Part shown: one piece after another, positions 10,286 through 34,661 of the stretch
Numbering within the stretch: position 1 is the first letter of the stretch
Layout of the letters: each line of letters opens with the position of its first letter
Assembly: GCA_018056955.1 (NCBI GenBank)
Contig: JAGPEQ010000003.1
Span: 14,068-78,067, forward strand
DNA length: 64,000 bases
Direction of reading: 5' to 3'
Source of the DNA: Bacteroidales bacterium
GTDB lineage: Bacteria > Bacteroidota > Bacteroidia > Bacteroidales > Tenuifilaceae
Notes under the pieces: model-generated
Database searches by the model: none
The model's input: the letters and a program-made list of their open reading frames with translations, nothing else
What the model was told of the DNA's origin: nothing
Translations under genes and position numbers: made by a program

Positions 10286-10891
10286 TTAGTACTTGTTAGC
10301 ACAATCGATGCAAACCTTTTTATCTCCTTTAATGCGTCCGTACTCCATAACCGTCATTTCGCCACACTCCTCGCATACAAAGCTATTAAAACTGTGTGGG
10401 TGTTCTTTAAGGTCATACTGGAAGACCTCTGAAATATTGATTAACTTTTCATCAGGGGCGTTCATTACATTATTAACCAAAGGGTCAACCACCAAATCGG
10501 GAACTTTACTTGCGGGTATTCCCTTTTCGCGGTAATCCTTAAAGAATGATGTTTGCTTATTGGCAAGCATTGCTTCTGCTTTGGGTGTAACCCTTACAGC
10601 GCGGCCGGTAGCTTTGTCAATAACAGTAACGGCCCATTTCCCTTTATGGGTTTTCTTGATATTGCCTTTGCCAAAGGTTGCGCCCAGTATAACCTGTAAA
10701 CCATCGGCATAGCAGGTGGCACAATGGTCATCGCCAAGGTCAACAAGGGCTATTAGCTGGCCATCCTTAGCACGTTCCACACCCAGTGCATTCATTGCAG
10801 CAGCACCTACCCTAAGCCCCATAGGCATTGCAGGACATTTATGTCCATGGAATTTTTGACCAAATTCCAACCAATCTTTGGGATTAATCAT
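10286..10891 (-). CDS. FmdE family protein with C-terminal zinc ribbon
   Basis: 201 residues. The N-terminal domain (about 1-140) has the FmdE signatures HGHKCPAMPMGLRVG and DDHCATCYADGLQV followed by GATFGKGNI. The family was named from formylmethanofuran dehydrogenase operons but is common in anaerobes without that enzyme, and its biochemical role is not settled. The C-terminus adds a zinc ribbon with CEECG and CIDC pairs (about residues 173-197). It is the last gene of the TetR-TauE-CDF-FmdE set, 18 bases after the CDF gene, so a part in metal or sulfur handling is inferred from context only. Confidence 0.85.
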   Translation of the reverse strand: MINPKDWLEFGQKFHGHKCPAMPMGLRVGAAAMNALGVERAKDGQLIALVDLGDDHCATCYADGLQVILGATFGKGNIKKTHKGKWAVTVIDKATGRAVRVTPKAEAMLANKQTSFFKDYREKGIPASKVPDLVVDPLVNNVMNAPDEKLINISEVFQYDLKEHPHSFNSFVCEECGEMTVMEYGRIKGDKKVCIDCANKY

Positions 10892-19192: not shown

Positions 19193-20536
19193 CTAAAAGA
19201 AATAGCCATATATAAGGCCCGAAATGGTTGCCATAATCACAACAAGCGAAACATAAGCCACTGCTTTTCTTGTGCCAAGCACGCCCCTAATTACAAGCAT
19301 GTTGGGTAGCGATAGCGATGGCCCTGCAAGGAGTAGAGCCAGAGCAGGCCCTTTACCCATACCGGAAGCAAGTAGCCCTTGAAGTATGGGAACCTCGGTT
19401 AGGGTGGCAAAGTACATAAATGCCCCTACAATGGATGCAAAAAAGTTGGCAAATATTGAGTTGCCACCTACCAGGTAGGCAATCCACTCGTTGGGTATAA
19501 CCCCTGCTATGGTTTGCCCATCGTGTGTCGATCCAAGTAGAAATCCGGCAGTAACCACCCCTACTGCCAGCAGTGGCATGATTTGCTTTGCAAATCCCCA
19601 CGAGGCTATTGTCCATTCCTTATTCTCGTCATCATTTTTATCCTTTAGGGTGATAAAGGCTAAAGCAATAATCCCTACCAGCATGGGTACAAGCGGGAGT
19701 ACTTTGGGATCGGCGATGTACATATTAGCCAGTATTACTGACAACAATGTGGCACCAATAGCTCCAGCTACCCATTGCCATTTTATTTTAAGGATGTAGA
19801 TTAAAGAGTAAGCGAGCAATAGGCCGAAAAACCCGGTAATGTACCACTTATAGGTGTATAGGTAATACCATGCACTCGATGTATCGTCGGCAGTAGGTTT
19901 TCCCCAGTTGGCAAAAACAAGTATTAGTACCAGCGTGAAGAAGTGGAACGAAGTTTGCCACATGGGGCGTTTTTCGGGAGGTAGAACTATGTTCATTTGT
20001 CCCTCGCGTTTAGCTTGTTCCTCCTTCCGGTAGATTAGTGACATGGCTATGCCAATAATTACACTGAATGCTATAGCCCCAACAGTTCGGGCAATACCCA
20101 TTTCAATGCCCAAAATGCGGGCTGTGAGAATAATGGCTAGTATGTTGATTGCAGGGCCGGAGTACAGAAAGGCAATGGCTGGCCCTAGACCCGCTCCGCG
20201 TTTGTGTATACTGGAGAAAAGGGGTAGGATTGTGCAGCTGCAAACAGCCAGTATGGTACCCGATACTGCTGCAACAGTGTAGGCAAGCCATTTCTTGGCA
20301 TTAGCCCCAAAGTACCTTAATACTGAGCCTTGGCTCACAAAAACCGAAATAACCCCTGCAATAAAGAAAGCTGGTAGCAGGCATAGCACAACGTGTTCAC
20401 GGGCATACCAACGCGTTAAATCTAGTGTGGCATCAATGGCTGTTCTGAAGGTTGCATTATCAATCGGCATGAAAAAGGCAAATGCAAAGAAGAATATTAT
20501 CCAAAACAGTACTTGTAATTCCTTTTTGTTTTCCAT
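19193..20536 (-). CDS. ArsP/DUF318 family permease
   Basis: 447 residues, about eleven membrane segments. The N-terminal half has the family signature ILAVCSCTILPLFSSIHKRG with the paired CSC cysteines, followed by GLGPAIAFLYSGPAINILAI; the C-terminal half repeats it as GKGPALALLLAGPSLSLPN. A large central loop contains charged residues (KDKNDDENKEW). Characterised relatives include ArsP, which exports trivalent organoarsenicals; others are linked to Cu, Zn or other ions. It lies 21 bases downstream of the ArsG gene at the end of an ArsR-led operon. Confidence 0.88.
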   Translation of the reverse strand: MENKKELQVLFWIIFFFAFAFFMPIDNATFRTAIDATLDLTRWYAREHVVLCLLPAFFIAGVISVFVSQGSVLRYFGANAKKWLAYTVAAVSGTILAVCSCTILPLFSSIHKRGAGLGPAIAFLYSGPAINILAIILTARILGIEMGIARTVGAIAFSVIIGIAMSLIYRKEEQAKREGQMNIVLPPEKRPMWQTSFHFFTLVLILVFANWGKPTADDTSSAWYYLYTYKWYITGFFGLLLAYSLIYILKIKWQWVAGAIGATLLSVILANMYIADPKVLPLVPMLVGIIALAFITLKDKNDDENKEWTIASWGFAKQIMPLLAVGVVTAGFLLGSTHDGQTIAGVIPNEWIAYLVGGNSIFANFFASIVGAFMYFATLTEVPILQGLLASGMGKGPALALLLAGPSLSLPNMLVIRGVLGTRKAVAYVSLVVIMATISGLIYGYFF

Positions 20537-20557
20537 TTCAAGGTTCGTTTAAAATTG

Positions 20558-21259
20558 CTATAAAAGAAAAATGCTTAGGTAGTAAATTCCAACGCCTATA
20601 AAGACAACGGCTACCACACGCCTAAACCATAGCTCAAAGGTTTTTACCTTATTGTATAGGTTCCCAATGCCATGTACTGTAAATGCAATAAAGTATGCAA
20701 ATATGATAACTGGTAAACCTGTGCCAAGCGCATATATAACCGGTAAGTATAACCCTTTAGCGTTTGATATTGTTATAGGTATTAGCATTCCAAAGTAGAG
20801 CACTCCGCTATAGGGGCAAAAGGCTAAAGCAAAAGCCATTCCCATAATTAGTACACTAAGAAAGTTCCCGATTTTGGCTTTTTCTCCAAAGTTTTCAGTA
20901 AGTTTTCCTGCCCCGCCCAGCTTAATCTTTATGATATCGAGCATGAACAGACCAATAATAATAAGTGCGGGTCCAATTATACGTTCACCGTACTTATTTA
21001 AAAAGCCGGCTATTTTAAACTGGCTCGCACCAAAAAAGAATAACAACCCAATGGCTGTATAGGTAATGGCTCTGCCTAAGGTGTAAACCAGGCCGCTGTA
21101 GAATACCCTGTGTTGGTTCTCAATATCCTTACTGATATATGCTATAGCGGTGATATTGGTTGCCAGGGGGCAAGGACTTATGGCCGTTGCCAACCCTAGC
21201 AGGAAAGCGGTTAGTATTGGAATGTTTGAGCTGTAAATGAAATCCAGAATAAAATCCAT
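20558..21259 (-). CDS. arsG: ArsG family (DsbD-like) aromatic arsenical efflux-type permease
   Basis: 233 residues, six to seven membrane segments, related to the DsbD/CcdA fold. Conserved Cys/Pro motifs are ATAISPCPLATNITAI near residue 25 and LAFCPYSGVLYFGML near residue 140, as in the ArsG family described for efflux of aromatic aminoarsenicals in Bacteroides. It starts two bases after the stop of the ArsF gene and is followed by the ArsP permease. The pairing with ArsF is the family's known context. Arsenic as the real substrate is inferred from homology, not shown here. Confidence 0.8.
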   Translation of the reverse strand: MDFILDFIYSSNIPILTAFLLGLATAISPCPLATNITAIAYISKDIENQHRVFYSGLVYTLGRAITYTAIGLLFFFGASQFKIAGFLNKYGERIIGPALIIIGLFMLDIIKIKLGGAGKLTENFGEKAKIGNFLSVLIMGMAFALAFCPYSGVLYFGMLIPITISNAKGLYLPVIYALGTGLPVIIFAYFIAFTVHGIGNLYNKVKTFELWFRRVVAVVFIGVGIYYLSIFLL

Positions 21260-21261
21260 GG

Positions 21262-21693
21262 CTAACCCTTGATGAGTTTTTTAACCTCGTTGGATAGTTC
21301 CTCCCTGAATTTATCGGGGTTGCGACGTGCTGTTCCAAATGCCATATTAGTAAGGTTGATCACCTTATCGCCCTTTACAAGCAGCAGCGATGAACCATAT
21401 ACTCCATACTTTTCGCAAATCTGCTTGTTTCGTCCTTCGTCGGCATTAATAACCTGTAGCTCTACCTTTCCTTCTTCTGCCTCTTTTTTAAGGTTTATTT
21501 CAAAGGTGGCTTTGGTTTCGTTTTCAATGGCTATGCAAGTTGGACAGCGATGTTCGCCATGGAAGTAGTAAACGGTAACAGGGTTTCCGCTACCATCAGT
21601 GCTAGCAATGCTGTTTTTTTCGCCAGAGTTTCCCATGCAGCTTACAATGGTTAAACTTGCCACTGCAAGCAAAAAGTATTTTAGCGCTTTCAT
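21262..21693 (-). CDS. arsF: ArsF family exported lipoprotein with RCPTC thiol motif
   Basis: 143 residues. The N-terminus is a lipoprotein signal ending LTIVSC, so the protein is anchored on the outer face of a membrane. The domain is thioredoxin-like with YYFHGEHRCPTCIAIENETK containing a CPTC pair, and a C-terminal SSLLLVKGDKVINLTNMAF. The family is annotated as the ArsF subunit of a nitrophenyl compound nitroreductase in aromatic arsenical resistance. It is translationally close to both neighbours (2 bases each side). A role as an electron donor to the DsbD-like ArsG protein is a reasonable inference. Confidence 0.8.
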   Translation of the reverse strand: MKALKYFLLAVASLTIVSCMGNSGEKNSIASTDGSGNPVTVYYFHGEHRCPTCIAIENETKATFEINLKKEAEEGKVELQVINADEGRNKQICEKYGVYGSSLLLVKGDKVINLTNMAFGTARRNPDKFREELSNEVKKLIKG

Positions 21694-21695
21694 AC

Positions 21696-21938
21696 TTACT
21701 GCTGGCTTTTGGTTATAATTTCCTTTAGTTCCTTTGCATCGGGAACTCGGCCCGATAGAACAACCTTCTCGTTAATAACAAGCGCTGGGGTACGCATAAC
21801 TCCGTAGTTCATTATATCCACAATGTCCTCAACCTTTGTGATGGTTGCCTGAACTCCAAGTTCATTAATTGCATTCTGGGTAGCCTGTTCAAGTGCCTTG
21901 CACTTGGGGCATCCTGTTCCTAAAACCTTAATTTCCAT
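21696..21938 (-). CDS. Small thioredoxin (TM0996/MTH895 redoxin type)
   Basis: 80 residues from the Met at 21938 (MEIKVLGTGCPKC). An upstream Met at 21986 would overlap the regulator gene. The active site is GCPKCKALE, CPKC near residue 10, followed by TPALVINEKVVLSG with the cis-Pro. These small cytosolic redoxins accompany ArsR and permease genes in many anaerobes. It probably reduces a metalloid or passes electrons to the membrane redox protein in this operon. It lies 28 bases after the ArsR-type gene. Confidence 0.88.
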   Translation of the reverse strand: MEIKVLGTGCPKCKALEQATQNAINELGVQATITKVEDIVDIMNYGVMRTPALVINEKVVLSGRVPDAKELKEIITKSQQ

Positions 21939-21966
21939 TGTTTGAAGTTTTAATGGTTTAACATTA

Positions 21967-22317
21967 CTATTTTGATTTTCCAGCATTTGTGCTACATGAA
22001 TTTGTATTTACCGCCTCCCAGATATTACTATTAAAAAAACGGTCGAATATTTCACGGGCTTCATTCCATGCCTCGGGGCGGATACAGTACTTGATTTTGG
22101 GCGGATTGAACTCCCCTTGTATCAGGCCTGCCTCGCGCAGCTCAGTTAAGTGCTGCGATAGCGTACTGCGGGCTATTGGTAGGTCGTTAACAATGTCGCC
22201 GCTGTAACAGCAGCTTTGCTGCGAGAGTATCTGGAGTATCTGCACCCGTACTGGATGGCTAAGCGCTTTGGCGTAACGCGCCAGTTTTACTTGTTCCTCG
22301 GTATAATTACTTTTCAT
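21967..22317 (-). CDS. ArsR/SmtB family winged-helix repressor
   Basis: 116 residues from the Met at 22317 (MKSNYTEEQ), chosen because the -7 box at 22339-22346 would overlap the other in-frame start at 22341. The winged helix contains SQQSCCYSGDIVNDLPIARS and STLSQHLTELREAGLI, the recognition helix of the family. The CC pair just before the DNA-binding helices, together with the C-terminal C-S-T cysteine, may form the metalloid sensor site. It heads the operon of redoxin, ArsF, ArsG and permease. The palindrome at 22361-22376 is its likely operator. Confidence 0.9.
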   Translation of the reverse strand: MKSNYTEEQVKLARYAKALSHPVRVQILQILSQQSCCYSGDIVNDLPIARSTLSQHLTELREAGLIQGEFNPPKIKYCIRPEAWNEAREIFDRFFNSNIWEAVNTNSCSTNAGKSK

Positions 22318-22338
22318 CTTTCTCCAAAAAATTCTTGG

Positions 22339-22376
22339 CAAGTATACAAATATTTTGTATTTCGTAAAAATACGAA
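22339..22376 (-). promoter_or_regulatory. Promoter and ArsR-type operator of the ars-like operon
   Basis: TTCGTA-AAAA-TACGAA at 22361-22376 is a perfect 6-bp inverted repeat 44 bases upstream of the repressor start. Minus-strand TATACTTG (22346-22339) is one base from the -7 consensus, so the palindrome covers the -33 region, where a repressor would block RNA polymerase. Confidence 0.6.
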
Positions 22377-27325: not shown

Positions 27326-27699
27326 TTCTTCAAACTTACCCTAACTCCTTCTAACTCCATCGAATTCTGTTTATTTCGAAAATTCCTAATCATCCCGAGT
27401 TATTCCCCCTCTTTGGCGCGCGCCTGCGGACGCGTGCAAGCGAGGGAGTTGGGCGGAGTCCAAGCCAAAGGCAGCACTTCAGCCGGACAAAAGAATTTGT
27501 GTACGTGACTGAACAAGGGATTTTTTACTAAATTTACTGAAGGCTACCGGGCGGAGCGGCGTATGCCGCACGCGTTTAAAAACGAGCGGGAGCGAGGGTA
27601 ATAAAGTGTAGGAAGTAATTGTCACGTACTACAAGTCCGCGCCAGCAGTGGGGGTGAAATGTTAATGTTACCCCACGGATTGCAAATCCGCGCGAGCGG
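27326..27699. other. Intergenic region upstream of tRNA-Ser filled with GC-rich repeats
   Basis: 374 bases between the M16 gene and tRNA-Ser. The left part (about 27340-27410) is pyrimidine-rich with pieces like CTAACTCC. The rest carries GC-rich repeat modules described separately. No promoter of the TAnnTTTG type was found for the tRNA. Confidence 0.5.
27548..27690. repeat. Palindromic repeat modules left of the AT-rich patch
   Basis: Three parts: module A (about 27558-27599, beginning GCGTATGCCGCACGCG), module B (about 27606-27650, with TCACG and CCGCGCCAGCAGTG) and a palindrome CGGATTGCAAATCCG at 27676-27690, ten bases before tRNA-Ser. Modules A and B recur in opposite order at 29432-29520. 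A degenerate third copy of A lies near 27414-27452. They resemble REP-type palindromes dispersed in Bacteroidota. Confidence 0.65.
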
Positions 27700-29279: not shown

Positions 29280-29520
29280 GCTACCGCACGATTCCTCGGC
29301 CGCTCGCGCGGATTTACCTTCGGTGAGCTCCCTTCGGTCGGTTGTAATCCGTGCGGTTGTAGTTCGGCAAAGCCAATTCGTGCGGTTATTTTAAAGGTGT
29401 TTTCAATGAGGCACAGCTTGAATAAGTAAAAGTGTAGTATGTATTTATCACGGGCTATAAGACCGCACCAGCAATGAGTTGCGTATGCCGTACGCGTCTG
29501 CAGACGCGAGTGAGCAAGGG
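29280..29520. repeat. Repeat modules right of the AT-rich patch
   Basis: A GC-rich stretch with TTGTAATCCGTGCGG at 29342-29356 and CGTGCGGTTATTTTAAAG at 29379-29396, then module B (29432-29477) and module A (29480-29520, with the perfect palindrome GCGTCTGCAGACGC). These match the modules at 27558-27650. The rest of 29276-29539 contains no gene. Confidence 0.65.
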
Positions 29521-29539: not shown

Positions 29540-30664
29540 CTATGACCATCGCCCATTAATTTTTGCTCCACACCAGCCGCATTTCCCATTGTTAATGTTA
29601 ACAAGTGCTACATTGTATCCCTTGCGTTCCACAACCACCTTACCGCATGATGGGCAAATGGTATCGCCCGATCCGGGCAGAGCTGTATTGCCTATGTAAA
29701 CATATTTCAACCCACACGATTGGGCAATCTCTCTTGCCTTAATTAGCGTTGATTTTGGTGTTTGTGGGAGTTGGGTAAGTTTGTATAACGGGAAGAACCG
29801 GCTAAAATGCAACGGCACTTCGGAAAATCCATTACTTGCCAGCCACTGGCACATCTTACGTATCATGGCATAATCATCGGTCCATGTGGGTATAACCAGG
29901 TTGGTTATTTCAACCCAAACGTTCATCTCGAGTAGTATGCGTAAGGTGTTAAGAATAGGCTCCAGGGTTCCTGCATTAAGCTTCAGGTAGATTTCATTAC
30001 TAAACGATTTCAGGTCGATGTTGGCAGCGTCAATCCTTTTTGCGAGTTCGCGTAGCGGTTCCTCGTTTATGTAACCGTTCGATACTAGTACATTGCCTAT
30101 GCCCTTTTTCTGAGCAATTCCAGCGGTTTCATACATGTATTCGTAAAAAGTAATTGGCTCTGAGTAGGTGTATGCTATGCTTTTGCATCCATTGCGTTTG
30201 GCCTGTTCAACCACCTGTTCGGGGAATAGCTCTGCATTTCGGGTATCCTTGGGACTGCTTTGCGAGATCTCCCAGTTCTGACAGTTTAGGCAACCAAAGT
30301 TACAACCAGCCGTTGCAATGGAAAACGATTTGCTTCCCGGGTAGTAATGGTAAAGAGGTTTCTTCTCAATGGGATCGATATGCACGGCGCACGGATTACC
30401 GTAGGCAATGGTGTATAGCTTTCCGTTGTAGTTAACCCGGTTGCGGCACTGGCTGGTTTCTCCGGGACGAATATTGCACTCATTGGGGCAAAGGTTGCAA
30501 CGCATACCGCGCGGAGTGGGTGTGTAAAACATTGCCTCGCGGCTCCACTTCCAGGGTTTATCGTCCAACCCAAATGCCGATAGGCTTAAGTATCGCAGGG
30601 CCATAAAACCTCCGGTTGCTAAAAGACTCCGCTTCAGGAATTCGCGGCGCGATATCTTTTCCAT
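29540..30664 (-). CDS. AmmeMemoRadiSam system radical SAM enzyme with Tat signal
   Basis: 374 residues. The N-terminus has a twin-arginine export motif, SRREFLKR at residues 5-12, then a hydrophobic stretch. The radical SAM cluster motif is C121-NFG-C125-LN-C128 (CxxxCxxC), in the PflA-like branch. Extra cysteines lie at 56, 59, 63 and 73, and a C-terminal zinc ribbon has CPSC and CGWC. The Memo and AMMECR1 partners are fused in the gene at 33105-34634, which identifies the AmmeMemoRadiSam set; its reaction is, to my knowledge, not established. The third gene of the operon, 12 bases after the membrane protein. Confidence 0.9.
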   Translation of the reverse strand: MEKISRREFLKRSLLATGGFMALRYLSLSAFGLDDKPWKWSREAMFYTPTPRGMRCNLCPNECNIRPGETSQCRNRVNYNGKLYTIAYGNPCAVHIDPIEKKPLYHYYPGSKSFSIATAGCNFGCLNCQNWEISQSSPKDTRNAELFPEQVVEQAKRNGCKSIAYTYSEPITFYEYMYETAGIAQKKGIGNVLVSNGYINEEPLRELAKRIDAANIDLKSFSNEIYLKLNAGTLEPILNTLRILLEMNVWVEITNLVIPTWTDDYAMIRKMCQWLASNGFSEVPLHFSRFFPLYKLTQLPQTPKSTLIKAREIAQSCGLKYVYIGNTALPGSGDTICPSCGKVVVERKGYNVALVNINNGKCGWCGAKINGRWS

Positions 30665-30676
30665 GGTGTGAGTTTT

Positions 30677-33094
30677 TTAAACTTTAAGAAATAGGTAAAT
30701 GCCAATGAAAACCAATAATACCGCAATGCTTGACAGAAATCCAATTGATGGTATTAGCAAAAGTGTAACAATTACAATGCCAGCAGCCGATCCCATAAGG
30801 TCGGCAGCATAGGTTTTGGCAGGTTGGTTGGGGTTAGAGTTTGAATTCTCGGTAATACTAATATACAGGTAGCCAACACTAAACGAAGCAGTGAGTATTC
30901 CTGCACTTACAATGGCTATTAATAGCCAAATTTCCACATGCATCATAGTTATAAAAAGGGCAAAAAGAATAATAAATGAACCGATTAATGAAATTTTTAT
31001 GTGTTTAGGTTTTATACTGATTACCTTCCCGTATGCCATTGAGCCTAGCGCTAGTCCTCCCATGAAAAGGGCAATCATTGCGCCAAGCGTGCCGTAAAGT
31101 AAGCCTGCTGCAATTTGTAGAGTTAATAGGTAAAGGGTTTGGATAGCCGATCCGGCAAATCCTACAGCGTACATCGCGCGCAGGTGGTAGTTAGTAACAA
31201 AGAAAGGGATAAGTAAAAGGACGGCTCCAACGACCATAAGTAGCCAAATCTTATCGCCAAACATCGATAGGTACCCTAGCGTGTTTTGCAATACCGGCCA
31301 AGGATGATTATCGGTGTTTATTTTCAGGGTTGATTGGGTTTGCTCATGAAAGAAATGGTTACGCTGAGCAATGTGCTCATCGTTGATGTAATCGGGGCGT
31401 ACGTATAGGTTGGCTTCGCCAATATTTTGCTCGCTTAGTAATTGAGCCATATCAATACGTATAGTGCTATCCGATGCAAGCAGGTAATCGCGCTCGCCGC
31501 TTATTACCTCTACATTTCGGAAAACGCTCTTAAACGTAGCTGCTATCGACGTGTAGGCCTTTTGCCTTGGTGCCGATGGGTAGTTCCCAATACCTGAAAG
31601 GCTAACACTTAAAACCCCATCTGCTGTTAAGTGTTTCTTTAAAAGTTCAAGGAATTCAATGGTAAAGAAACGGTTTTGTTCAAGCGATGTTGGCTCGGGC
31701 GTTGTGATAATTGCAATGTCGTACTTTTCCGATGATTTTCTCAGAAAACCACGAATGTCACTATTGATAATTTTAGTATTGTCCGGGAAATCAACCTTAC
31801 AATAGTTTCCACTCATCCTTAAAAGATGGGGATTAGGTTCTACATAATCTACTTTTTTTACTTGCTTATACTTTTTCAGCTCATCAATCAGACCCGCATA
31901 ACCTCCCGATACCAGTAAAACCTTACTGGGCATGTAGCGTTGCGATATGGTGTAATGCACTACTTCCTCGCAGTAAATGGTATTTTGCGTGCCAAAAAGC
32001 ATTGTTCCATTTTCGAAAAAATTGAACTGATCCTCCGAACCGGTCACGGTTATACTTCCATAGGGCGAATCGGTTACCGATAGTACCTTCTGCCCCGGAA
32101 AAAGCATCGACTCCGCTTTAATGTCAAAATTTAATGTTTTTACTGATATGCCAATTGTTAAAAGCGACATTGGAATAGCAAGTCTGGCAATATTTTTAAG
32201 GGGGTAGGCTATGATTAAACTAGCTAAAAAACCAACCGCAATTGCTGCAAGGTATGTATTAAAAATCCAGATAATTACAAGCGATAGCAAAAGTCCCCCT
32301 GCCAAACTTCCTAATGCTTCGTAAGCATAAATGGATGGGTATTCCGATTTTATTTGTTTGGTGAGCAAGGCATAAACCATGCCCGATGGGAAAGCAGTGG
32401 GAGTCATCATTACTACAATCATCACTATAACATGGTAAGGTGGAATAAGCACTCCCGACGGGAAAAAGGTTTGCCTGATTTCGCCCGATAAGAAAATAAA
32501 AATTATGGCTGAAAGAAACATAAACCCTAGTGCCATTCGGGTTAACTTTTGGGGGTTTATCCCGTTAGCCGTTCGGCTTCCGGCAATGGCACCCGCAGCC
32601 GACAGTAGCATCCATATACCTATTATCCATGTTATTAGGAACTCGTTCCCCTGGAATACCTTAGTGAACTGCCTAATCAGCAGTACCTGAAGCGATACCG
32701 AGAGTAGTCCAAGCGCAAAAGCTGACTTTACAAGTTGCTGCTTTGTATTAACCGTTGTCGTTTTGGTTTGCCTACCCCTAAACAAAAGGTATTTACTGAA
32801 GTATCCCCTGTGCCAAAGGGTATGAATGAATGCCACCACGCTCATGGCAATCCCAAGCTGAACGTGCCACTGTAGCATGACCTTAACAAAACTCCACCCC
32901 AGCTTATAGTTTATATTGATTATTAGTAGAATTCCAAGAATGGCACAGCCAAGGAATACAAATAGCAGAGCAAAGTTCCAGAACTTCCGATGGGTTGAAA
33001 AAGATATAATGCCTGCTTGCACCATTAGGCTGCCAAGTAGATAATATATGGTGATGGCTAACGAAATGGGAATCAGGAGGTAGGGTGAACTCAT
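30677..33094 (-). CDS. Polytopic membrane protein with spermidine-synthase-like domain
   Basis: 805 residues from the ATG at 33094, ten bases after the previous stop. Domains in order: an N-terminal membrane bundle with His at about 35, 77, 91 and 95; a second membrane bundle; a soluble SAM-binding-type domain around 340-600 with VLLVSGGYAGLIDEL and VEPNPHLL; and a C-terminal membrane bundle. In true spermidine synthases the catalytic loop contains an Asp (DSSDP type), but here it reads ITTPEPTS, so putrescine aminopropylation is doubtful. Membrane-embedded SpeE homologues are widespread with unclear roles. Its place between the Memo-AMMECR1 and radical SAM genes suggests a partner role. Confidence 0.85.
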   Translation of the reverse strand: MSSPYLLIPISLAITIYYLLGSLMVQAGIISFSTHRKFWNFALLFVFLGCAILGILLIININYKLGWSFVKVMLQWHVQLGIAMSVVAFIHTLWHRGYFSKYLLFRGRQTKTTTVNTKQQLVKSAFALGLLSVSLQVLLIRQFTKVFQGNEFLITWIIGIWMLLSAAGAIAGSRTANGINPQKLTRMALGFMFLSAIIFIFLSGEIRQTFFPSGVLIPPYHVIVMIVVMMTPTAFPSGMVYALLTKQIKSEYPSIYAYEALGSLAGGLLLSLVIIWIFNTYLAAIAVGFLASLIIAYPLKNIARLAIPMSLLTIGISVKTLNFDIKAESMLFPGQKVLSVTDSPYGSITVTGSEDQFNFFENGTMLFGTQNTIYCEEVVHYTISQRYMPSKVLLVSGGYAGLIDELKKYKQVKKVDYVEPNPHLLRMSGNYCKVDFPDNTKIINSDIRGFLRKSSEKYDIAIITTPEPTSLEQNRFFTIEFLELLKKHLTADGVLSVSLSGIGNYPSAPRQKAYTSIAATFKSVFRNVEVISGERDYLLASDSTIRIDMAQLLSEQNIGEANLYVRPDYINDEHIAQRNHFFHEQTQSTLKINTDNHPWPVLQNTLGYLSMFGDKIWLLMVVGAVLLLIPFFVTNYHLRAMYAVGFAGSAIQTLYLLTLQIAAGLLYGTLGAMIALFMGGLALGSMAYGKVISIKPKHIKISLIGSFIILFALFITMMHVEIWLLIAIVSAGILTASFSVGYLYISITENSNSNPNQPAKTYAADLMGSAAGIVIVTLLLIPSIGFLSSIAVLLVFIGIYLFLKV

Positions 33095-33104
33095 GGACAG
33101 CAAT

Positions 33105-34634
33105 CTACTTTAAGCCCAGTTCCTTCTCATCGAAAACAATGGCCTCGTAGGTAAATATTTCGGCATCGCGCCAGCCATCCCACCCAATACCAGCCTTGTC
33201 GCGTGCGCAGTGGCCAAGGAATTCTTCAAGCGACCATCGGGTTTCCTTTGCCACCTGTGGCAAAAACGTTCCGGAGCGACCTCCTTTTTTGATATATATT
33301 CCGTGTTTACCCAGTTCTATCTCCTTAATGTCGCTTATTCGTTTCATTGGGGTAAGAACCGAAATCTCAATATCAATATCGTTCAACTCGTCGGCTGTTA
33401 CCGATTCAAAACGGTAATCCTCAGTTGCTGCCGATATGGCCATGGCCATTACTACACGGTAGAGTGGGGTTGTGGTGGAAAAATTTCCAATGCATCCACG
33501 TAACTTACCGTGGTTGTGCAGGGTTACAAAAGCACCGGCATTGGTTTTTAGAGTTGATGATAGTTTGGACTCATCGGGTGGTGTGGGGGTTTTCCCGGAA
33601 AGGTATTCGGTGATGGTTTTCCGTGCAAGTTTGAGTAGCTCGCGTTTATCGTTGTCGGTTAGGTTGAAGTCTACAGTTTTGGCTTGCTGTTGAATGGCAG
33701 CAATAGCCCAGTAGCCTACAACCCTATCCTTGCCGCCGTAAGGCGAATCGCCGGAGTTTCTATACATAATTGTTTTGTAGGTGATGCCAGGTTTCCCCTC
33801 AGTGATTTTCAAAAGCGTAAGCCCCGATGTCCATCCACACATGGCTGTTGCCAGGTCGTCGATACCAGCATTCTCGTTTCGGATTTTGGCTTTCATGAAC
33901 TCTACAGGCGAGTTAGAGACAATGGCATGGGCCATATCGTCGTCGGTGTGGCGGGCATCCTCGTATGAGGGGTAGTGTGAGAAGTCGGAACTGATTATGA
34001 AAAGATTATCGGGGTTAAGGTATGGTTCTAATGCTTCGGCCAAAAGGGTAACAGTGGCTTGCGATTCGCCACCAATAATTATGGGGATAATGGAAAAATC
34101 GTTTTTTAGCCAGTATTGCAGAAATGGCAATTGAACCTCAAGGCTATGCTCCTTGACATGTGGTTTTACATCATCCGTAAACACCTTATGGTTTTGAACC
34201 AGTTCGTTTGCCAAAGGGTCAATAGGAACCCTGCCTAGTGGCGTAATAAATGCACCCTTGGTGTAAACGGCTGCTCCTGTAAAAAACATGGTGTGGCTCG
34301 ATCCTATCAGGAAGATATGCTTGAACTTTTTATCCCTGTCAATTTGCCTATACCCGCTTGCAGCCACCTGACCGGAAAAAACGTAACCGGCATGAGGTAC
34401 AATTAGGGCTAGGGGCTGAGCATCCAAAACCTTTTGTGCACTATCGAAGTAAGATTTCACCTCCTTTTCCAGCTGAGCCTTTGTGCCGGGATAAAATTGT
34501 CCTGCTACAGCTGGTTGTCTATCGAAATCGTTAGGGTTATTCATATTCTGTCCGTTACACGATGTTTCGGTTACTATTAAAACTGTTAGCGTAAAAGCAC
34601 AAAGCTTTTTACTACGGTTAAGCAGATTATACAT
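33105..34634 (-). CDS. Memo-AMMECR1 fusion protein (AmmeMemoRadiSam proteins B and A)
   Basis: 509 residues from the Met at 34634 (MYNLLNRSKKL); an in-frame Met at 34661 would also be possible. A hydrophobic N-terminus ending near VTETSCNGQ suggests export, perhaps as a lipoprotein, though the -3 residue is not typical. Residues about 35-310 are a Memo domain with PHAGYVFSG, a GSSHTMF segment, EHSLEVQLPFLQ and DLATAMCGW, which hold the His and Cys metal ligands of the family. Residues about 325-505 are an AMMECR1 domain with LRGCIGNFS. Two proteins that are usually separate are fused here. First gene of the operon. Confidence 0.9.
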   Translation of the reverse strand: MYNLLNRSKKLCAFTLTVLIVTETSCNGQNMNNPNDFDRQPAVAGQFYPGTKAQLEKEVKSYFDSAQKVLDAQPLALIVPHAGYVFSGQVAASGYRQIDRDKKFKHIFLIGSSHTMFFTGAAVYTKGAFITPLGRVPIDPLANELVQNHKVFTDDVKPHVKEHSLEVQLPFLQYWLKNDFSIIPIIIGGESQATVTLLAEALEPYLNPDNLFIISSDFSHYPSYEDARHTDDDMAHAIVSNSPVEFMKAKIRNENAGIDDLATAMCGWTSGLTLLKITEGKPGITYKTIMYRNSGDSPYGGKDRVVGYWAIAAIQQQAKTVDFNLTDNDKRELLKLARKTITEYLSGKTPTPPDESKLSSTLKTNAGAFVTLHNHGKLRGCIGNFSTTTPLYRVVMAMAISAATEDYRFESVTADELNDIDIEISVLTPMKRISDIKEIELGKHGIYIKKGGRSGTFLPQVAKETRWSLEEFLGHCARDKAGIGWDGWRDAEIFTYEAIVFDEKELGLK

Positions 34635-34661
34635 TATGCTAACGGTTTGGTATTTCCCCAA

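Follow-up and report, generated by a model that had tools for sequence, protein, structure and literature searches.

A likely extracytoplasmic version of the AmmeMemoRadiSam system encoded in a Bacteroidales genome

The AmmeMemoRadiSam system encoded in the window, that is, the whole 64,000-nucleotide stretch of Bacteroidales DNA analysed here, is likely an extracytoplasmic version of this system, a location that is inferred from sequence and has no bench evidence. This location is well supported because signals are found on all parts of the system, the parts co-occur, TatC is present, signal-less paralogues exist and the predicted topology agrees. The sequence basis, comprising the gene set, the signals, the co-occurrence and the fold, is shown; radical chemistry outside the cytoplasm and the supply of SAM by a transporter are inferences, likewise without bench evidence. 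The AmmeMemoRadiSam family itself is known. Its exported form was not described in the open-access literature searched, although a prior mention is possible in Burroughs et al. 2019 (cited in PMC7159879), who treated the gene contexts of Memo, AMMECR1 and radical SAM proteins, the same gene sets as that of the window.

Gene organization and the Memo-AMMECR1 fusion

The three genes occupy positions 29540-34634 on the minus strand, where the sequence-only reading had placed them. The first encodes a Memo-AMMECR1 fusion of 509 aa (33105..34634), starting with ATG at 34634, with an alternative TTG start possible at 34661. It is followed by the gene for a SpeE-like membrane protein of 805 aa (30677..33094, ATG at 33094) and by that for a radical SAM enzyme of the TIGR04337 family of 374 aa (29540..30664, ATG at 30664). 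The gaps among them are only about 10-12 bases, and the three genes therefore likely form a single operon. The curated cut-offs were exceeded by the radical SAM enzyme (TIGR04337, 355.6 bits against 220), the Memo domain (TIGR04336, 235.1 bits against 26) and the AMMECR1 domain (TIGR04335, 175 bits against 99), and the Spermine_synth domain of the membrane protein scored 53.5 bits against a cut-off of 22.9. The operon, which encodes the Memo, AMMECR1 and radical SAM families together and above their cut-offs, thus belongs to the AmmeMemoRadiSam system. The earlier claim that such an operon is present and that its three products all look directed to or across the membrane held, with signals or helices found on every product.

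The hydrophobic N-terminus that had been noted on the Memo-AMMECR1 fusion was confirmed and could be refined to a lipoprotein-like signal (residues 1-26; 34557..34634, minus strand), which runs MYNLLNRSKKLCAFTLTVLIVTETSC and ends in Cys26, followed by NGQ. The residues at -3 to -1 before this cysteine are ETS, and the protein looks like a lipoprotein, a reading inferred from sequence alone. All 54 scored Memo proteins of the exported set carry a signal sequence; a cysteine directly follows the hydrophobic core in 38 of these 54, and many of the others resemble cleaved Sec signals.

Several other features of the window were observed. Two copies of a composite repeat (27554-27699 and 29300-29520), each built of 48 and 45 nt pieces that are 76-79% alike and an inverted 26 nt arm, lie on either side of a 1.6 kb stretch that adjoins the operon and contains a tRNA-Ser and small orphan ORFs. 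Positions 19193-22341 encode, in a row, an ArsR regulator, a redox-active thioredoxin-like protein, a small lipoprotein-like protein, a DsbD-type protein and an ArsP-type permease, likely a single metalloid or thiol stress operon. At 10286-10891, an FmdE domain is joined to a zinc finger of the DksA/TraR type; methanogenesis is not expected in this genome.

A conserved Tat-like signal on the radical SAM enzyme

The radical SAM enzyme begins with MEKISRREFLKR (also given as MEKISRREFLKRSLLATGGFMALRYLSLSAFG). Its Tat-type signal region (residues 1-32; 30569..30664, minus strand) consists of the motif S5 R6 R7 E8 F9 L10 K11 and a weak hydrophobic stretch, with a putative cleavage site, SAFG, that is predicted from sequence. 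The twin-arginine motif SRREFLKR, which the sequence-only reading had called clear, held for the window, as SRREFLK fits the published Tat consensus (S/T)RRxFLK (PMC1182353). Its conservation across homologues, which that reading had proposed as a check, held in part. Across 63 aligned relatives from Bacteroidota, Ignavibacteria and Desulfobacterota, the motif reads [ST][KR]R[ED]F[LI][KR] and is conserved position by position, with the Phe kept in 62 of the 63. A strict RR pair is found in only 12 of them, but KR (43/63) and RK (8/63) occur with the rest of the motif intact. Known Tat signals tolerate a single Lys in the twin pair, either KR or RK, and TtrB naturally has KR (PMC1182353). Three other Tat-like proteins on the same contigs have RR, and KR therefore seems to be a habit of the AmmeMemoRadiSam radical SAM family.

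Moreover, the hydrophobicity of the h-region is lower in the radical SAM signals than in the signals of their Memo partners (1.68 vs 2.58, p 3e-20); Tat signals are less hydrophobic than Sec signals (PMC1182353). The h-region is followed by [AVS]xA in 35 of the 63 relatives, indicating that the cleavage sites are not uniform. TatC is encoded in the window's genome (199.7 bits) and in 35 of the 38 genomes having a Tat-like radical SAM enzyme. In one relative (L133), a plain membrane helix or anchor replaces the Tat motif, and that genome lacks TatC, though its assembly is small.

The signal of the window's enzyme did not reach the TIGR01409 cut-off (13.0 bits against 16.7, for a model of only 29 positions), and PF10518 matched only 2 of the 63 relatives. 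These two Tat HMMs are too short and based on RR, and were dropped as a test in favour of the position-by-position count. What we claim for the N-terminus is a Tat-like signal, not membership of TIGR01409. Tat motif searches are also known to overpredict, as only one of 69 RR/KR candidates of B. subtilis was Tat-dependent in a study quoted by PMC1182353. The comparison of sequences shows that the motif on the radical SAM enzyme is a conserved variant and not a product of chance.

Association of the signal with the SpeE-like gene

The relatives comprised 80 from one scan of bacterial genomes and more from genomes of the same phylum; they were gathered with an exported-type query, and the rows are related rather than independent. 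Counted by genome, the SpeE-like protein is present alongside 80 of the 82 enzymes of the exported type and alongside none of the 30 non-exported ones. The carriers include the cultured Mangrovibacterium marinum DSM 28823 (L077), whose genome has the complete set of three. The fixed co-occurrence of the SpeE-like gene that the sequence-only reading had asked about was thus confirmed as nearly fixed. The association gives a Fisher value of 3e-25, which serves only as a guide given the relatedness of the rows and the exported-type query. Where the SpeE-like gene was not adjacent, it was found elsewhere in the genome in 10 of 12 cases, and none of six close relatives without the signal has it. 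Of 395 genomes drawn evenly from the phylum, 8 contain the SpeE-like subfamily, and all 8 have the exported enzyme. Mapped on a tree, the exported type requires 5 changes, compared with 30 in shuffles.

Independent pairs for the joint loss of the Tat motif and the SpeE-like gene numbered only 2 on well-supported branches, and the sign test was not significant; such co-loss is therefore only suggestive. Four exceptions were found: one enzyme has the signal without a SpeE-like gene (L072), one is accompanied by a divergent SpeE-like gene only (L088), and two have lost both the Tat motif and the SpeE-like gene while their Memo signal is kept (L118 and L120). Around the enzyme, only the SpeE-like and Memo-AMMECR1 families recur widely in 86 loci, and no fourth conserved gene that could give a clue to the substrate was found in these 86 loci.

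Ordinary AmmeMemoRadiSam sets (for example L010-L039, L054-L056, L202 and L203) carry no signals. In contrast, every part of the system described here has a signal, Memo and AMMECR1 usually form one protein, and the MFS/SpeE-like protein is added. Both forms can occur in one organism: the window's genome encodes a second TIGR04337 enzyme without a signal (L040), and two genomes of another genus have, besides the exported operon, complete signal-less sets in which Memo and AMMECR1 are separate (L202 and L203). Exported-type enzymes were also seen on contigs labelled Theionarchaea, Aenigmatarchaeota and Woesearchaeota (L105, L108 and L110), which are likely misbinned bacterial DNA.

A predicted MFS-type fold with a SpeE-like domain outside

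The SpeE-like protein had been read as polytopic, and this held. In its AlphaFold model (pLDDT 87.8, pTM 0.83), a soluble domain at residues 323-612 (31259..32128, minus strand) stands between two sets of helices. This domain resembles spermidine synthase (3anx, Z 28.4), and the membrane part matches the MFS proteins SV2A, FLVCR1 and PepT (Z 21-22); a Pfam MFS match is absent. The model thus predicts an MFS-type transporter fold with an inserted spermidine-synthase-like domain, and transport itself is inferred. The inserted domain is flanked by two additional helices lying between the two bundles of six. The POT family likewise has two such helices at this place. The membrane part aligns with PepT/POT and SV2A-type MFS proteins over 331-359 residues (Z 21.7-22.4), from which the window's protein differs in that its outer loop is occupied by the SpeE-like domain. 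The distribution of positive charges places the loops 165-186, 296-307 and 682-701 and the C-terminus inside, and the spermidine-synthase-like domain is therefore predicted to lie on the periplasmic side, a prediction resting on this charge bias and on fold analogy.

The residues that hold the nucleoside are kept in aligned members (E419 in 37/38 and D446 in 36/38), and on this basis the domain is inferred to bind an adenosyl compound. The catalytic Asp of aminopropyl transfer is Thr464 in the window's protein; it is absent in 34 of the 38 members and present in 4. With this Asp lost, the SpeE-like domain is unlikely to make spermidine, and the cut-off for polyamine aminopropyltransferases was far from met (90.7 of 472 bits). 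A function as polyamine synthase, which the SpeE-like label could imply, is made unlikely by the active site, correcting the initial reading on this point. Soluble spermidine synthases and fused MFS-spermidine synthase proteins share the SpeE fold and the nucleoside-binding residues with the window's protein, whereas its domain lacks the catalytic Asp, divides the membrane part into two halves and has a predicted location outside.

An extra N-terminal domain of three helices (residues 1-104; 32783..33094, minus strand) with invariant H77 and H91 is found in 11 of the 38 aligned members, namely the window's protein and ten relatives. Its carriers are part of the Bacteroidales and L115. The domain is weakly like b-heme families: matches to cytochrome b561 and to DUF4405 were obtained for 7 of the 11 members each, all below cut-off. 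The best match of the window's domain, with cytochrome b561, DUF4405 and ferric reductase compared, is 16.8 bits against a cut-off of 28.

Catalytic features of the radical SAM enzyme

The CxxxCxxC motif of the radical SAM enzyme (C121/C125/C128) is invariant in the alignment, and the enzyme also has an N-terminal cluster of four cysteines (C56/C59/C63/C73) and C-terminal CxxC pairs. Its AlphaFold model (pLDDT 92.4) has an activase fold with a SAM site. The nearest solved structure is that of pyruvate formate-lyase activating enzyme, both by sequence (3c8f, E 4e-16) and by fold (3cb8). Unlike glycyl-radical activases, the window's enzyme has the N-terminal four-Cys part, the C-terminal CxxC pairs and an export signal, and no conserved glycyl radical enzyme adjoins the exported type. 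A His in the stretch CAVHIDPIEKKP marks the exported type: 75 of 83 exported members have it, as do just two others, both nested inside the exported branch.

In one genus (L143-L147 and L166), the segment that separates the Tat signal from the enzyme proper contains a CxxCH in 5 of 6 species and a subsequent DH in all 6. This genus has cytochrome c assembly genes. The CxxCH could represent a c-type heme fused to the radical SAM enzyme, which is no more than a possibility, as CxxCH and His could also bind zinc. Heme is attached to CxxCH outside the cytoplasm, and a c-type heme here, if real, would therefore be independent support for export. C-terminal matches to CxxCH in the radical SAM enzymes were discounted as variants of the CxxC pair of the zinc ribbon.

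Proposed mechanism and alternative explanations

The comparison supports the earlier claim of an exported enzyme with a membrane-bound, SAM-domain partner, with Tat dependence, signal cleavage and turnover outside the cytoplasm remaining inferred. In the mechanism we propose, the radical SAM enzyme would acquire its iron-sulfur clusters and fold in the cytosol, and Tat would then move the folded enzyme over the inner membrane. Memo-AMMECR1 would be sent via Sec and held as a lipoprotein, and both proteins would meet the MFS/SpeE-like protein at the outer face of the inner membrane. This transporter may carry SAM, or another adenosyl compound that is a product or a substrate, through the membrane, its outer domain handing the compound over to the enzyme; alternatively, it may remove products. 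Electrons may arrive via membrane or heme carriers, here perhaps via the N-terminal three-helix, b-heme-like domain, and the exported enzyme would make a radical acting on a substrate handled by Memo-AMMECR1. The SAM supply, the electron path and the reaction are guesses, and only the extracytoplasmic location is regarded as likely. A bolder reading, which combines transporter-supplied SAM, electrons from fused b- or c-hemes and periplasmic radical chemistry on a substrate bound to Memo-AMMECR1, remains tentative and is less likely than not. No SAM pool in the periplasm is known to us. This, the scarcity of a strict RR pair (12/63 relatives), the overprediction of Tat motifs, the heme-like matches that stay below cut-off, the possible binding of zinc by CxxCH, the few independent events of co-loss and the exceptions noted above speak against the proposal.

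The alternative that survives best, though unlikely, is that the N-terminal helix stays uncleaved and anchors the enzyme at the inner face of the membrane, with only Memo-AMMECR1 outside. Cytosolic SAM and reductant would then pose no problem, and the non-uniform cleavage sites ([AVS]xA in 35/63) and the KR in place of RR in most relatives are in its favour. However, the basic N-terminus ahead of the helix favours an N-in, C-out orientation, and a plain anchor gives no reason for the invariant F and K/R of the Tat motif. Moreover, the predictions place both the Memo partner and the SpeE-like domain outside, and one genus has CxxCH in the part beside the helix.

It is very unlikely that the enzyme is exported without performing radical SAM chemistry, acting instead as a metal or nucleoside binder that serves to sense iron or redox state, with Memo as a metalloprotein. 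Links between Memo and metals have been made, and periplasmic SAM is not known, both of which would suit this explanation; against it, 84 of 85 exported members retain the cysteine motif of radical SAM enzymes and the modelled fold is that of an activase with a SAM site. That the Tat-like motif is a coincidence of one genome, an ordinary cytosolic set lying beside a membrane gene, gains some plausibility from the frequent false positives of Tat motif searches (PMC1182353) but is all but excluded, being already contradicted by the joint conservation of the motif, the SpeE-like gene and the Memo signal over several phyla and by the ordinary copy elsewhere in the same genome.

Implications

Radical SAM chemistry is generally taken to be cytosolic, since SAM and low-potential electrons are located there. 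A whole system outside, with a conserved transporter-like protein bearing an outer SAM-type domain, would make periplasmic SAM a testable idea, and organisms with both inside and outside copies permit a direct comparison of the two forms. Humans also have Memo and AMMECR1. If the system is extracytoplasmic, the substrate of Memo/AMMECR1 must be reachable from the periplasm, which would provide a handle on the unknown reaction of these two proteins.
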